Positions 7,672-28,352 of a DNA stretch of 38,909 nt are shown here, in pieces. The notes beneath the pieces are model-generated. The model did not search any database. It was not told the DNA's origin and saw only the letters and a list, made by a program, of their open reading frames with translations. How positions within the stretch are numbered: the stretch's first letter is position 1; each line of letters starts with the position of its first letter. Where the stretch lies: the IMG/VR virus record IMGVR_UViG_3300045973_000452, positions 1-38,909 of that record. One strand, written 5' to 3'. This stretch comes from a virus. Made by a program: the position numbers and the translations under genes.

Positions 7672-8224
7672 GCCGCCAGCACTGAATCCGCAACAGCAGG
7701 ATGCGGTCAGGCGACGGCTGGCTGAGGGCGAAGGGGTGCGAGCACTGGCGCGGGAGTTCAACACCAGCGACGCAACGATTCGCCGCCTTTCGTCGCATTC
7801 GTCGCAGATTCGAAACGTGGCCGAAACCCTCGCGGCGGCACAGACCGCTCTGGCCGCGCTTCCTCTCGCGCAGCAGCATCAAGCCCTCAGCCTGGCCGAC
7901 AAGCTGCGCAGCATCAGTGAGAACCTGGCCAGCGCCGCCGAACTGGGCGCGAAGACGTCGCACCGCCTGCAGGCCCTGGCAAACAGCCAAGTGGCGAAGG
8001 TTGACGATGCCGATCCGATGAAGTCCATAGGCGCACTGCGCGATGTCGGCGTGCTGACCAAGTTGGCAAACGACAGCGCCAGCATCGCCCTGAACTTGCT
8101 GGCGGCGAACAAGGGCACGGTAGAAAAGCTGAACACCGACAAGCCTGAAGAGCCTGGCATCGACTCATCGAAGCTGTCGTCTGCCACGCTGGCCGAACTG
8201 CTGGCCGCCCGTGGTCCTGTCTGA
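7664..8224 (+). CDS. Probable terminase small subunit
   Basis: A 186-residue protein from ATG 7664, overlapping the previous stop by 8 bases (ATG 7655 is an alternative). Residues about 10-45 are a helix-turn-helix of the resolvase/terminase type (AVRRRLAEGEGVRALAREF, then NTSDATIRRLSS). The rest is helical and Ala/Leu-rich, suitable for a ring-forming oligomer. It immediately precedes and overlaps the large terminase, the standard place for the DNA-recognition subunit that brings phage DNA to the packaging motor. Assignment depends on position and HTH. Confidence 0.75.
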   Translation: MSRPPALNPQQQDAVRRRLAEGEGVRALAREFNTSDATIRRLSSHSSQIRNVAETLAAAQTALAALPLAQQHQALSLADKLRSISENLASAAELGAKTSHRLQALANSQVAKVDDADPMKSIGALRDVGVLTKLANDSASIALNLLAANKGTVEKLNTDKPEEPGIDSSKLSSATLAELLAARGPV

Positions 8225-9623
8225 CGCCGACTGGCTGTCCATAGAGCGCGAGGCCTGCAAACGCAGCCTGGCCACCTTCATCCGCGAGGCGTGGAAAGTC
8301 CTAGAGCCCGGCCAGCCATACGTGCACGGCTGGCACATCGACGCCCTGGCCGACCACCTTCAAGCGGTAACCGCCGGGCAGATAACCCGGCTGCTGGTCA
8401 ACGTGCCGCCGGGCACCATGAAAAGCCTGATGACGGGCGTTTTCTGGCCCGCGTGGGAATGGGGACCGCGCAGCATGAGCCACGTCCGCTTCATCGGCGC
8501 CAGCCATGAATCGACGCTGGCCACGCGCGACAACCTGCGCATGCGGCGCCTGGTGCAAAGCGAGTGGTATCAGCGGCTGTGGCCTCTGGTGCTGACATCA
8601 GATCAGAACGAGAAGACATTCTTCGAGAACTCAGCCACCGGCTGGCGACAGTCCTGCGCAGTACGGTCGATGACGGGCCGCCGCGGCGACCGCGTGTGCT
8701 GGGATGACCCGCACAGCGTGGAAGACGCGCACTCGGTGGCAGCGCTGGATGAGGCCGCGCGCATCTTCTCGGAGACGCTTCCGACCCGGCTGAACAACCC
8801 CGCGTCATCGGCCATCGTGATCGACATGCAGCGGCTGCACGAACGCGACATCAGCGGCCTGATCCTGGCGCGCGAGCTGGGCTATGACCACCTGTGCCTG
8901 CCGATGGAGTGGGACGGCCCGCGGCCAGCCACCAGCATCGGATTCAAAGACCCGCGTACCGAGATGGGAGCGCTCCTGTTCCCGGCACGGTTCTCGCGCG
9001 AGGTGGTGGACCGCGACAAGCGCGTGATGGGGCCCTATGCCGTGGCTGGCCAGTTCCAGCAGCGCCCAGCGCCACCCAAGGGCGACGAATTCCAGCCCGA
9101 CATGATCGGAACCATCGACGCCATCCCGGCCGGCGCGGTGCAGTGGTGCCGAGGGTGGGACATGGCGGCCACCGAAGGCGGCGGCGACTGGACAGCCGGC
9201 GTGAAGATCGGCCGCCTTGTTGATGGCCGGTACATCGTGGCCGACGTGAAGCGCGCGCAGTACGCCACCCACCGCCGCGACGCGCTGCTGAAAGCCACGG
9301 CGCAGGGCGACGGCCCGGCGCTGAAGCAGAGCATCCCGCAAGACGGCGGGCAGGCCGGCAAGGACCAGCGCCTTGCGTTCGCGGCGCTGCTGGCCGGCAG
9401 CACGGTGCACTTCAGCCCCGAGACCGGCGACAAGGTGACGCGCGCCCGGCCGTTTGCCAGTCAGGTCAACGCGGGCAACGTGCTCATGCTCAAGGCCGGG
9501 TGGAATCACGACTTCCGTGAAGAGCTGCGCCTATTCCCGAACGGCAGCCATGATGACCAGGTGGACGGCGCATCGCGAGCTTTCGCGGGCCTGCTGGTGC
9601 CGCGCACGGGCATCTTCGTCTGA
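8211..9623 (+). CDS. terL: Terminase large subunit
   Basis: A 470-residue protein from GTG 8211, overlapping the small subunit by 14 bases. N-terminal ATPase: Walker A VPPGTMKS at about 65-72, Walker B DRVCWDDP near 160-167. C-terminal RNase H-type nuclease: GWDMAATEGGGDW near 316-328, with the first catalytic Asp, and HDDQVDGAS near 447-455 with the last acidic residues. It powers DNA translocation into the prohead through the portal and cuts concatemers. All key residues appear intact. The start region (FIREAWKVLEPGQPYVHGWH) is typical of terminases in proteobacterial siphophages. Confidence 0.95.
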   Translation: MVLSDADWLSIEREACKRSLATFIREAWKVLEPGQPYVHGWHIDALADHLQAVTAGQITRLLVNVPPGTMKSLMTGVFWPAWEWGPRSMSHVRFIGASHESTLATRDNLRMRRLVQSEWYQRLWPLVLTSDQNEKTFFENSATGWRQSCAVRSMTGRRGDRVCWDDPHSVEDAHSVAALDEAARIFSETLPTRLNNPASSAIVIDMQRLHERDISGLILARELGYDHLCLPMEWDGPRPATSIGFKDPRTEMGALLFPARFSREVVDRDKRVMGPYAVAGQFQQRPAPPKGDEFQPDMIGTIDAIPAGAVQWCRGWDMAATEGGGDWTAGVKIGRLVDGRYIVADVKRAQYATHRRDALLKATAQGDGPALKQSIPQDGGQAGKDQRLAFAALLAGSTVHFSPETGDKVTRARPFASQVNAGNVLMLKAGWNHDFREELRLFPNGSHDDQVDGASRAFAGLLVPRTGIFV

Positions 9624-24244: not shown

Positions 24245-26718
24245 ATGACCCAGCAGGCATCACCGGCCGGCAACGTTTCCCGTGGAACCTTGAGGCGAGC
24301 CTGCAGGACAACATTGCTGCAGCCATGCCCGACGGCGGCGGCGAATGCCAACTGCGCATCAACGGTGTGACGGTTGACCCGCTCACAGATCCCCGAATGG
24401 ACGAGCCGCCCGAGCTGGGCGACTTCGTCACCATCACGCGCCGTCCAGGAACCGGCATCGAGGTGTACCTCTACGTGGCCCTGGCCGCCATCACGATCTA
24501 CACCCTGGCCACGATGCCAAAAGCGCCGTCGGACACCAACCAGGCCGGCAAGCAAAGCCCGAACAATGCCCTGACTGCGCAGACCAATCTGGTTCGCGTC
24601 TACCAGGCTATCCCCGACGCCTACGGCCTGCGCCGCCTGTGGCCAGACCTGATTCAGCCCTCGGTGGTCGAATACATCGACAACGTGAAGTATGTGACCG
24701 AGTGGCTTTGCTTGAGTCGAGGAAAAGGCACGGTCACAAGCGTGCAGTACGCCGACACGCCAATCGCAGACATTGACGGTTCGAGCCACAGGGTGTTCGA
24801 ACCGGCTGCTTTGCCATCACCCTATCCAGAGAACAACGACACGACGCTGACGGACGTTTTGGAGGTGTTCCAGAGCCCAGAGGTTAATGGGCAAGAAATC
24901 GTTTATGCAGGATCTGTAGTGCCGCCTGCAGACCAGTCCATCGAAAGGCCTGGGAGCATCTTGCAAGTCGGAAACGCCTTGCAAATCCTGATCACAACTC
25001 TATTCCTTCCAACTGGATCAAATCCACTTGCATCCGTCAGCAATGTTCGAATAGAGGTTACTGATTACGGCCCTGGATTCACCGCTGGAATGGAATGGAC
25101 TCCGGTCGTGTTTCCGCTTACCGGATACACATCGGATGACCATGGAACATATTTCAACTTCAACTCTACGGGACTCACTTACGCATTTTTGCTAAGCCAA
25201 GCGAAGTTCCGGCTGACCTTCATGAGCGTGCTTACCAATAACATCCTGGGCCCATTCATCCTGCCCCGCGAATGCTCACGAATCCAGTGGAACACCGTAT
25301 TTCTGCGCGGCCTGAACGGAACTGCTGAGATCCTTGCGACATGGAACAAGGTGGACGCTTCCGGCGCTGCCATTCCTGGCACTACGGGAACCAAGGCGCT
25401 CACGTACACCAACACCACAGCCGACGAACTGTTCTTCACAGAGTGGGCCTATCCAACAGCCGGATTTGGCCGCTATGCCATCACATTCCAGCGCACAAAC
25501 CCAAACTCAGACACCACAGTTGCGAAGCTTGAAGCGCTGTACGCAGCCAACCTATATGCAACCAAGACGCTTCCCGGCGTGACTGTTATTCGCGTCACCA
25601 CGCAGGCCACTATCCAGGCAACTGGTTTCAGCGAACGGAAGTTCAATGCGCGATGGCAACGTCACGTCAGAACACTGAGCAGCGACACGCTGACTCCATC
25701 GCGAAACTTCGCGCGCACCATTGCCCATCTGTGGGCGCTGGCTGGCCAGAGCATGGCCGAGCTGGACACCGGAACGCTCGCAGGTATCAATGCCGAATTC
25801 GGTGAGGACAGCGAGCTGCTGCGATACGACGGATCGTTCGATGATGCCGACGTGAGCCTGGGCGAGCGCATGCAGCAAGCTGCCAGCCATGCCCGCTGCA
25901 ACCTGTGGCGCGACGGCACGAAGTGGACCGTGACGCGAGAACAGGCGCGCAGCACGCCAGAGCTTCAGTTTGACTACCGCAACCTGTCCGCCAGCGGAGA
26001 AAGCGGAATCAGCTACGCGGCGCACCTGCCAGGCTCCAGCGACGGCATCGAGGTCGAGTATGTTGACCCCGTGACGCTGGCAGAGAAAGCCTATGTGCGT
26101 CTCAGCGTAGCAGGCGGTGTGACCATAGCCGGGCGGTCTGAAAACCCGCTGAAGGTGCAGCTTCCAGGGTGCACCACCGAACTGCAAGCCAGGAATCGTG
26201 CGCACCTTGAAGCCCGTCGCCTGCTGTTCCAGCGCGTGCGCGTGCAAGACACCGCGTTGCCAGACGCCTCGGTGTTGGGGGCTGGCGCTCTGGTGCGCTG
26301 GGTGGACCCGAACGACTTCGCGGGTGACGACGGCCTGCAGGCGGGAGAGGTGCTGAGCATCGCCGGCGACGTCATCACGACCAGCGAGCCATTGGACTGG
26401 AAGGGAGAGATCGTCGGCCGCGTGCTGCTCACCGGCGAAGACGGTCGCTACCTGGGCTCACCCATCTCTTGCACACCTGTCACTGGCGGCCTGCAGCTGG
26501 CCACCGTGCCCGCTGGCCTGTTCGTGCGAGATGCGGCGCGACAGTGCGGAAGCCGCTACGCCTTCGCCGTGGGCCTCACGAATGCAGAGGTCGAGGCGGC
26601 GGGCCTGTACGTGGTGGAAGAACTGCGACCAGGCGCTGATCGGAGCGTGTCCATAGCATTGTCGAACTACGACGTGAGGCTGTTCGAAAAGGACAACTTT
26701 CCGCTGAACCAACTTTGA
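24229..26718 (+). CDS. TipJ-like host-specificity tail tip protein
   Basis: An 829-residue protein from ATG 24229. The first about 80 residues are a ubiquitin/MoaD-like fold (GECQLRINGVTVDPLTDPRM, GDFVTITRRPG), then one hydrophobic helix (YLYVALAAITIYTLATMP, about 84-101), then the TipJ body: QAIPDAYGLRRLWPDLIQP, LARGKG-type turn, YADTPIADIDGSSHRVFEP. The C-terminal half contains conserved hub domains (RTIAHLWALAGQSMAELDTG, GIEVEYVDPVTLAEKAYV, LSNYDVRLFEKDNFPLNQL). It should form the tail hub and receptor contact. The stretch at about 24,880-25,650 is visibly less GC-rich than both sides, so the receptor-facing part may be exchanged. Lambda J is the functional analogue. Confidence 0.88.
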   Translation: MLTILNDPAGITGRQRFPWNLEASLQDNIAAAMPDGGGECQLRINGVTVDPLTDPRMDEPPELGDFVTITRRPGTGIEVYLYVALAAITIYTLATMPKAPSDTNQAGKQSPNNALTAQTNLVRVYQAIPDAYGLRRLWPDLIQPSVVEYIDNVKYVTEWLCLSRGKGTVTSVQYADTPIADIDGSSHRVFEPAALPSPYPENNDTTLTDVLEVFQSPEVNGQEIVYAGSVVPPADQSIERPGSILQVGNALQILITTLFLPTGSNPLASVSNVRIEVTDYGPGFTAGMEWTPVVFPLTGYTSDDHGTYFNFNSTGLTYAFLLSQAKFRLTFMSVLTNNILGPFILPRECSRIQWNTVFLRGLNGTAEILATWNKVDASGAAIPGTTGTKALTYTNTTADELFFTEWAYPTAGFGRYAITFQRTNPNSDTTVAKLEALYAANLYATKTLPGVTVIRVTTQATIQATGFSERKFNARWQRHVRTLSSDTLTPSRNFARTIAHLWALAGQSMAELDTGTLAGINAEFGEDSELLRYDGSFDDADVSLGERMQQAASHARCNLWRDGTKWTVTREQARSTPELQFDYRNLSASGESGISYAAHLPGSSDGIEVEYVDPVTLAEKAYVRLSVAGGVTIAGRSENPLKVQLPGCTTELQARNRAHLEARRLLFQRVRVQDTALPDASVLGAGALVRWVDPNDFAGDDGLQAGEVLSIAGDVITTSEPLDWKGEIVGRVLLTGEDGRYLGSPISCTPVTGGLQLATVPAGLFVRDAARQCGSRYAFAVGLTNAEVEAAGLYVVEELRPGADRSVSIALSNYDVRLFEKDNFPLNQL

Positions 26719-26732
26719 ACCGGAGCATCTCT

Positions 26733-26999
26733 TTGAGACACGAAATCAACGGCTGGCACTTGGACAAGAAGGTGCCCATCGGCATCATCTTTGCGATGCT
26801 GTTGCAGTTCGCCGGCGCTCTGTGGTTCGTCAGCAAGCTCGACGCCCGCATCATGAGCCTCGAATCTGAGCGTGATTTGCAGCGCGGCCGCGATGAGCGC
26901 CAAGACACCACCAACAAGGACGCGCTGGGCCAGCTTACCCGCCAGCTCGAGCGCATCGACGAAAAGCTGGACCGCTTGATCGAGAAGGGCCGCAAGTAA
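26733..26999 (+). CDS. Single-span membrane protein, holin-like
   Basis: An 88-residue protein. TTG 26733 is preferred because CGGAG lies 7 bases before it; TTG 26715 is the longer alternative. A hydrophobic helix at about residues 16-33 (IGIIFAMLLQFAGALWFV) follows a basic start, and a charged coiled coil (ESERDLQRGRDERQD, LGQLTRQLERIDEKLDRLIE) fills the rest. This is the layout of small class III holins or XhlA-like partners. It opens the lysis region after the tail genes. Confidence 0.75.
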   Translation: MRHEINGWHLDKKVPIGIIFAMLLQFAGALWFVSKLDARIMSLESERDLQRGRDERQDTTNKDALGQLTRQLERIDEKLDRLIEKGRK

Positions 27000-27224: not shown

Positions 27225-28352
27225 ATGCTGACCGCCGACACCCTGCGCGCCGCCACCGGATGTACCGCCGAACACGCGGCCCTGTTTGCCGGACCGATTG
27301 CCGAGGCCTGTGCGGCGTACAAGATCGACACACCCGCGCGCCTGGCCGCGTTCCTGGCACAGGTGGGGCACGAATCCGGGTCGTTGCGGTACGTGCGCGA
27401 GCTGGCCAGCGGCGCAGCCTACGAGGGTCGCAAGGACCTGGGCAACACCAAGCCCGGCGACGGCATCCGCTACCGCGGTCGAGGCCTGCTGCAGACCACC
27501 GGCCGAGCCAACTACCGCCGCGTCGCCTACCGGATACCGAACTCCCCTGATTTCGAGGCAGAGCCCGAGCTGCTGGAGCTTCCGCGCTGGGCTGCGATGT
27601 CGGCCGCCGACTACTGGGCCGACCACGAACTGAACACGTTGGCCGACGCTGGGCAGTTCGAACTGATCACCCGCCGCATCAACGGCGGACTGAACGGTCA
27701 GGCTGACCGGCTGCAGCGCTGGGAGCGTGCCAAGGCTGCTCTGGCTGCGGCACCTTCGTCCGTCACAGACAGCCCACCCACCACGGCCGCCGCTGCGGTC
27801 CTACCGCCACCGAAGGAGTCCACCATGCCTCTACCCGCCATCCTGGCCGCGCTGTTGCCCAGCCTGATCGAGTCCGTTCCAAAGCTGGGCAAGCTGTTCG
27901 GTAGCGGCAGCGAAGTGGCCGAGCGCAACGTCAAGGCGGCCGAGATCGCCATGCAGATCGCGCAGACCACGCTTGGATCACGCAACGCTCAAGAGGCCGT
28001 CGAGACCTTGAAGGCCGACCCGCAGGCCGTTCAGCAGGTGGTGCAGGCCATCGAGTCTCGGTGGCTGGAATTGACCGAGGCCGGCGGCGACGGCATCGCC
28101 GGGGCTCGCAAGGCCGACGAAACCACGCGCCAGAGCGGCGACATGCTGCACAGCCCCAGCTTCTGGGTCACGCTGGCCCTGCTTCCGCTGGTGTACTTGG
28201 TCGTGGGCAGCGTGGTCGGGCTGTGGGGTGAGTCCTGGCCCAGCGACGTGCGCGCGGCGATTGCCACGGCCGTGGTGAGCTTGATCATCGGCGGCGCGGC
28301 CGGGTACTACTGGGGGCAGACGACGAGCAGGAATCGGAGTGCGGCGGCGTAG
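27225..28352 (+). CDS. GH19 chitinase-type endolysin fused to a holin-like C-terminal domain
   Basis: A 375-residue protein from ATG 27225. Residues 1-175 are a GH19 muramidase/chitinase-type domain: FLAQVGHESGSLRYVREL with catalytic Glu50, IRYRGRGLLQTTGRANYRR, TRRINGGLNG. It should cut peptidoglycan glycans. A Pro/Ala linker (about 180-198) leads to a 175-residue second part with a helical stalk (ERNVKAAEIAMQIAQ) and two membrane helices (SFWVTLALLPLVYLVVGSVV and ATAVVSLIIGGAAGYYWG). The two parts share one frame without a stop, yet an internal ATG 27825 has a perfect AAGGAG. No signal peptide or SAR start is visible, so the membrane part may help export. Confidence 0.88.
   Translation: MLTADTLRAATGCTAEHAALFAGPIAEACAAYKIDTPARLAAFLAQVGHESGSLRYVRELASGAAYEGRKDLGNTKPGDGIRYRGRGLLQTTGRANYRRVAYRIPNSPDFEAEPELLELPRWAAMSAADYWADHELNTLADAGQFELITRRINGGLNGQADRLQRWERAKAALAAAPSSVTDSPPTTAAAAVLPPPKESTMPLPAILAALLPSLIESVPKLGKLFGSGSEVAERNVKAAEIAMQIAQTTLGSRNAQEAVETLKADPQAVQQVVQAIESRWLELTEAGGDGIAGARKADETTRQSGDMLHSPSFWVTLALLPLVYLVVGSVVGLWGESWPSDVRAAIATAVVSLIIGGAAGYYWGQTTSRNRSAAA
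27825..28352 (+). CDS. Nested holin-like membrane protein (internal start of the endolysin gene)
   Basis: ATG 27825 lies in the endolysin frame and is preceded by AAGGAG eight bases away, the best ribosome site in the lysis region. Translation here gives 175 residues: an amphipathic start (MPLPAILAALLPSLIESVPK), a helical stalk and two membrane helices ending in a basic tail. In related phages such proteins are usually separate genes. The likely situation is that two genes merged by loss of the upstream stop while the second start was kept. Product use is inferred. Confidence 0.6.
   Translation: MPLPAILAALLPSLIESVPKLGKLFGSGSEVAERNVKAAEIAMQIAQTTLGSRNAQEAVETLKADPQAVQQVVQAIESRWLELTEAGGDGIAGARKADETTRQSGDMLHSPSFWVTLALLPLVYLVVGSVVGLWGESWPSDVRAAIATAVVSLIIGGAAGYYWGQTTSRNRSAAA

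Follow-up and report, generated by a model that had tools for sequence, protein, structure and literature searches.

In textbook lysis, the endolysin is a soluble protein in its own right that diffuses out once a holin has opened the membrane. The lambda S gene, which has two in-frame starts, yields the holin S105 and an N-terminally extended antiholin form, S107. Holin and endolysin are joined in one natural polypeptide in the Clostridium sporogenes fusion, whose holin belongs to the TpeE family, and the authors of that study proposed that an endolysin tethered in this way might be active on the wall (PMC9527704). In the two-polypeptide endolysins of Gram-positive phages, one gene gives two proteins that end at the same stop, the shorter being initiated in frame from an internal start with a dedicated RBS; the survey that compiled them excluded Gram-negative phages because internal starts were judged unlikely in single-domain endolysins (PMC9430671). 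The ICP1 protein TeaA dissipates the proton motive force, can be triggered by dinitrophenol (DNP), and causes lysis of V. cholerae, and its own published GTA_holin_3TM/DUF3154-like assignment rested on remote homology (PMC7182436).

A GH19 endolysin domain and a TeaA-like protein in one frame

The window (i.e., the whole stretch of DNA analyzed) is a linear virus record of 38,909 bases. It carries an open frame of 375 codons on the plus strand, as are all of the features described here, which extends from ATG 27225 to TAG 28352 (positions 27225 to 28352, stop included; 375 aa) with zero stops between an N-terminal GH19 domain and a C-terminal membrane domain (C-domain). The N-domain (residues 1 to 175; positions 27225 to 27749) matched phrog_181 among the PHROGs (E value of 6e-63) and the GH19 endolysin 9ms7 in a profile search of the PDB (E value of 4e-67), and Foldseek aligned its predicted fold with that of 9ms7 at a TM-score of 0.92 on the target. 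Two candidate catalytic glutamates within positions 27372 to 27401, E50 (27372-27374) and E59 (27399-27401), are invariant in 21/21 aligned GH19 fusions; their catalytic role is presumed by analogy with GH19 endolysins in general. AlphaFold2 modeled the fusion as a confident domain to approximately residue 175 (pLDDT mostly >90), a disordered linker at residues 180 to 202 (pLDDT <50), and subsequent helices, including those at residues 203 to 217, 311 to 331, and 340 to 367. The linker segment, which is rich in Pro, Ala, Ser, and Thr (residues 176 to 200; positions 27750 to 27824), varies from 8 to 43 aa among GH19 homologs, and no cleavage motif conserved across the homolog linkers was seen. 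Neither domain was recognized in a Pfam search with the full fused protein of the window.

The C-domain (approximately 175 aa) comprises a hydrophobic/amphipathic helix at its own N terminus (fusion residues 203 to 217; positions 27831 to 27875), a long helical region, and a C-terminal two-helix hairpin. The hairpin consists of two predicted transmembrane helices (residues 311 to 331, positions 28155 to 28217, and residues 340 to 367, positions 28242 to 28325), the second with a basic C-terminal tail; hydropathy and AlphaFold2 point to all three of these helices. Across C-domain homologs, hydropathy gave three hydrophobic stretches in 40/53 and two in 12/53. The original prediction had a GH19 domain running through a linker into a two-helix membrane protein without a stop. 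The open frame, the GH19 domain, and the disordered linker all stand, but the C-domain has more than two helices, given the additional N-terminal helix and the long helical region.

A profile built from 43 C-domains matched residues 1 to 168 of ICP1 TeaA (182 residues) with 69 bits, the match being judged by bit score (the E value came from a database of three sequences); the controls, reversed TeaA and ArrA, were unmatched. In this alignment, the internal Met of the fusion pairs with Met1 of TeaA, and identity between C-domains and TeaA is roughly 20 to 35%. The link to TeaA was first reached by a tblastn search with the C-domain of a relative (L056), which led to ICP1 teaA. The C-domain of the window had zero matches in a tblastn search against 50,697 phage records, and it was relatives as queries that led to TeaA. 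The top viral match of the C-domain in a Foldseek search (BFVD) was ORF20 of VHML, a weak and nonsignificant hit (E value of 0.17); ORF20 is a TeaA homolog that tblastn independently finds together with TeaA. The window protein has no match to Pfam PF11351 (GTA_holin_3TM) at the curated cutoff, and this family is absent from the 25 Pfam families listed for 43 homologs. We assign the C-domain to the TeaA family of holins by homology only. The earlier reading of this domain as holin-like thus appears sound, and the TeaA match places it on a firmer basis than was previously available.

A TeaA-like protein was also found in Xanthomonas phage PBR31 (L087:2498-3046), where the product annotated as a "putative spanin" matches TeaA (40% over 77 aa) and is encoded directly after a lysozyme gene. 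This product is more likely to be a TeaA-type holin than a spanin, as judged from the match.

Fused and unfused homologs and the internal start

An internal ORF in the same frame (positions 27825 to 28352, stop included; 175 aa), which covers the segment matched to the TeaA profile, is predicted to encode a free TeaA-family holin-like protein. The perfect AAGGAG previously reported for ATG 27825 is present as a Shine-Dalgarno (SD) sequence at positions 27813 to 27818, 6 nt before the start codon, and is conserved in homologs. The calculated SD duplex energy is −8.3 kcal/mol at ATG 27825 versus −0.6 kcal/mol at the endolysin start, ATG 27225, which has almost no SD pairing. The endolysin start lies 13 nt past the stop of a preceding small ORF and is therefore likely to be translationally coupled to it.

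Searches of sequence collections yielded 50 nonredundant C-domains with a start codon at the border, of which 47 belong to in-frame fusions (the upstream part being truncated in two of those counted, L050 and L071) and 3 to unfused close relatives. These searches used the C-domain alone and hence carry no bias toward fusions, with the proviso that unfused forms could be undersampled. In Burkholderiales-type bacterial genomes, all six full-length, high-scoring C-domain matches, which come on top of the 47, are fused frames (363 to 478 aa), one of them on a contig of 4.57 Mb and another on a contig of >2.1 Mb. The more distant TeaA-like proteins of such genomes and of phage PBR31 are mostly encoded by separate short frames. 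Searches of the 50,697 phage records with C-domains found no fusion of this kind at tblastn sensitivity (zero matches for four C-domains and only unfused Vibrio phage proteins for two), and a plasmid search likewise found none at its own sensitivity. The phage of the window is itself distant from named phages, the best matches of its large terminase (positions 8211 to 9623) being <50% identical.

The unfused relatives (L055, L065, and L072) group as one clade on the C-domain tree. Each initiates this protein at the equivalent Met, and its endolysin is encoded by a gene of its own that runs, in a different frame, across the holin start and terminates shortly downstream. This arrangement is a likely model of the state before fusion or of a reversal. 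A second, divergent class of membrane C-domains (approximately 20% identical; L010, L014, L017, L018, and L081) is likewise joined to endolysins of the GH19 or lambda R-like type, with an SD and an ATG at the border.

The border start codon is kept in 47/47 fused homologs (44 ATG and 3 GTG), and only three other ATG codons occur within 12 codons on either side of the border across the entire set. The mean SD duplex energy at the border of the fused homologs is −7.66 kcal/mol, versus −2.2 kcal/mol at control pseudo-borders chosen by the same rule as the real borders (P of approximately 1e-23 to 2e-23) and −3.0 kcal/mol at other internal starts. Chance occurrence of an SD before ATG 27825 was rejected on the homolog set, in which the SD is far above the control positions. 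A synonymous-recoding control for the SD gave a combined P value of 0.75, the Lys-Glu or Gln-Glu peptide at this site already implying an SD. The SD core lies in a different codon frame in 4 of the 42 scored members (e.g., TGG AGG in L004), and conservation therefore extends beyond the peptide alone. Three bacterial-genome loci outside model building (L103 to L105) all keep the ATG with AGGAG or AAGGAG, and a few fused members (L047, L062, and L068) have a weak SD with the ATG kept. Across GH19 members, the tendency of the internal SD to be stronger than that of the endolysin is a trend that does not reach significance (P = 0.06). Taken with the border start codon, the SD pairing above control positions suggests that the internal holin start is under selection.

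Farther upstream, positions 26715 to 26999 encode a 94-aa protein with one transmembrane helix and a charged, coiled-coil-like tail as judged by hydropathy; it lies outside our core claim. Small ORFs of varied kinds with one transmembrane helix are found upstream of the fusion in 13/49 loci. In a search of the homologous loci for a partner gene conserved upstream, homologs of the 94-aa protein adjoined the fusion in only two other loci (L038 and L046). A similar-looking ORF of 108 aa lies beside the fusion in one bacterial genome (G381; L101:10566-10892). The 94-aa protein is a possible spanin-like or antiholin-like lysis accessory; a quick lipobox scan of the 20- to 32-kb region of the window found no lipoprotein candidate.

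Endolysin exchange at the joint

Four unrelated endolysin types are joined to closely related C-domains: GH19, lambda R-like (phrog_90), GH24 (PF00959, phrog_7), and P5-like (phrog_873). The P5-like transglycosylase domain occurs in a single case (L069:5542-6546). On the C-domain tree, the distribution of endolysin types needs at least 21 changes, and strongly supported branches force 8 changes for GH19 and 9 for the lambda R-like type. Two pairs of sister sequences (L090/L091 and L049/L067) locate the joint: their DNA shares approximately 88% identity beyond the holin start and is near background upstream of it, where identity is retained only over the last 15 or so bases, which include the SD. 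From this break at the RBS and holin start, it follows that the exchanges fell in nonhomologous linker.

Joints made at random in a linker would be in frame in approximately one-third of cases, and eight consecutive in-frame joints would have a probability of approximately 1.5e-4 with stops not yet counted, a rough value given that the exchanges counted on the tree are not all independent. The in-frame fusion itself appears to be under selection, because the frames stay fused through repeated endolysin exchanges. We tentatively propose a wider reading, to which we give a little less than even weight, in which Gram-negative phages would share a widespread lysis module whose resident holin, with its own RBS and start, serves as a socket. 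Varied endolysins would have been plugged repeatedly and in frame onto its N terminus, and each phage would make both the holin alone and an endolysin tethered to the holin, the latter delivered by its own hole and possibly timing it, instead of releasing a free enzyme.

Two probable lysis proteins from one gene and comparison with known systems

Since selection appears to act on the in-frame fusion as well as on the separate holin start, two products would be expected, a tethered endolysin-holin and a free holin. This expectation, already part of the original prediction, gains strong support from the comparative data: the border start and its SD are conserved, and both the unfused relatives and TeaA start at the same Met. 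We consider it probable that this one gene specifies two lysis proteins, a GH19 endolysin tethered to a complete TeaA-family holin and a free holin from ATG 27825, which co-assemble. Initiation at ATG 27225 would give a membrane protein with the GH19 endolysin on a flexible tether joined to the holin N terminus, and initiation at ATG 27825, with its strong SD, would give the free holin, probably in excess; in the window, the free form should dominate because SD pairing at the internal start far exceeds that at the endolysin start. Lacking a signal sequence and lying N-terminal to the holin, the endolysin should be cytoplasmic and membrane tethered, in line with the tethering proposed earlier. 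The free and tethered holins may then co-assemble in the inner membrane, with the endolysin remaining cytoplasmic until the holin triggers. Upon triggering, the enzyme could move with the holin to the edge of the hole or flip to the outer side, and it would reach the peptidoglycan either while tethered or following cleavage of the linker. We infer the production of both forms, their co-assembly, their topology, and the route to the wall from sequence comparison, and the functional proposal as a whole (i.e., activity while tethered, a tether in place of holin-dependent release, and lysis timing set by the ratio of the products) is plausible.

The long form could also, or mainly, be an antiholin, with the bulky cytoplasmic endolysin blocking insertion or movement of the N-terminal helix of the holin and the ratio of long to short forms acting as a timer, as in lambda S107/S105. 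The first hydrophobic helix of the holin starts only a few residues after the internal Met, so that fusion caps a free N terminus with a domain of 200 aa; two in-frame starts are conserved; and ICP1 has a separate antiholin gene, arrA, directly upstream of teaA. However, only two residues separate S107 from S105, and hydropathy gives TeaA only two clear transmembrane segments. We regard this explanation as unlikely, if the most serious of the alternatives.

Somewhat less probable still is that the fusion is a delivery precursor, in which host proteases cut the linker and the soluble endolysin leaves via the holes of the free holin, with tethering having no role. Such proteolytic release is the main rival among the explanations that would make tethering unimportant. 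A disordered, Pro/Ala-rich linker that is highly variable in length would suit it, and separate endolysin and holin genes evidently suffice in the unfused clade and in phage PBR31. Nevertheless, a stop codon would be a simpler solution, the linkers lack a conserved cleavage motif, and the precursor explanation does not account for frames that stay fused after repeated endolysin exchanges.

An alternative in which the fusion is the sole product and the internal start a relic of once-separate genes would agree with the holin of unfused relatives starting at the same Met, but it is improbable given a start codon kept in every fused homolog with an SD far above controls, over branches long enough for complete change of the linker and across endolysin exchanges. 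An assembly or sequencing error that removed a stop, conceivable for a metagenomic virus record, is refuted for the family and can be dismissed here, since no stop or frameshift between the domains was seen and the same fused frame recurs in dozens of independent contigs and in six bacterial genomes, including the single contigs of megabase length noted above.

Under the preferred reading of a tethered endolysin-holin together with a free holin, the closest functional relative is ICP1 TeaA, whose holin activity is experimentally supported (PMC7182436); the two proteins are homologous from Met1 to residue 168, the TeaA start being equivalent to the internal Met. Unlike the C-domain described here, TeaA is encoded by a separate, unfused gene, with the antiholin ArrA encoded just upstream. 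In the open-access literature that was searched for endolysin-holin fusions, the reverse-order Clostridium fusion was the one relevant case, and none of the present kind was found. The C. sporogenes fusion differs in that the holin comes first and is of the one-helix TpeE/BhlA type, the host is Gram positive, six sequences are known, and no separate holin product was described. The fusion of the window has no N-terminal TpeE/BhlA holin; its order is reversed, and its holin matches TeaA. The gene in the window resembles those of the two-polypeptide endolysins, including CTP1L, LysIME-EF1, and phi2638A, in that a second in-frame start within it has an RBS of its own and leads to the same stop. 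The short form in those systems has a cell wall binding domain, either by itself or together with a catalytic domain, whereas here it would be a TeaA-like membrane protein. The GH19 phage endolysins of SPN1S (4ok7) and PWe2 (9ms7) have the fold and conserved glutamates of the N-domain of the window, and these solved chains are without a holin domain of this kind, judging by their lengths and matches. Compared with lambda S107, in which the extension is 2 residues, the extension here is approximately 200 residues and is an enzyme.

If a conserved holin-attached endolysin is indeed made together with a free holin from an internal start, release of the enzyme would become unnecessary, or the endolysin would become part of the timer. 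Such genes would mean that internal-start endolysins also occur in Gram-negative phages and that their short product can be a holin, and two starts, one linker, and four interchangeable enzymes would offer a concrete genetic system for studying how hole formation is coupled to wall degradation. What is new here is a variant of two described arrangements, the dual-start lysis gene and the endolysin-holin fusion, with an unusually clear modular exchange at a retained RBS.
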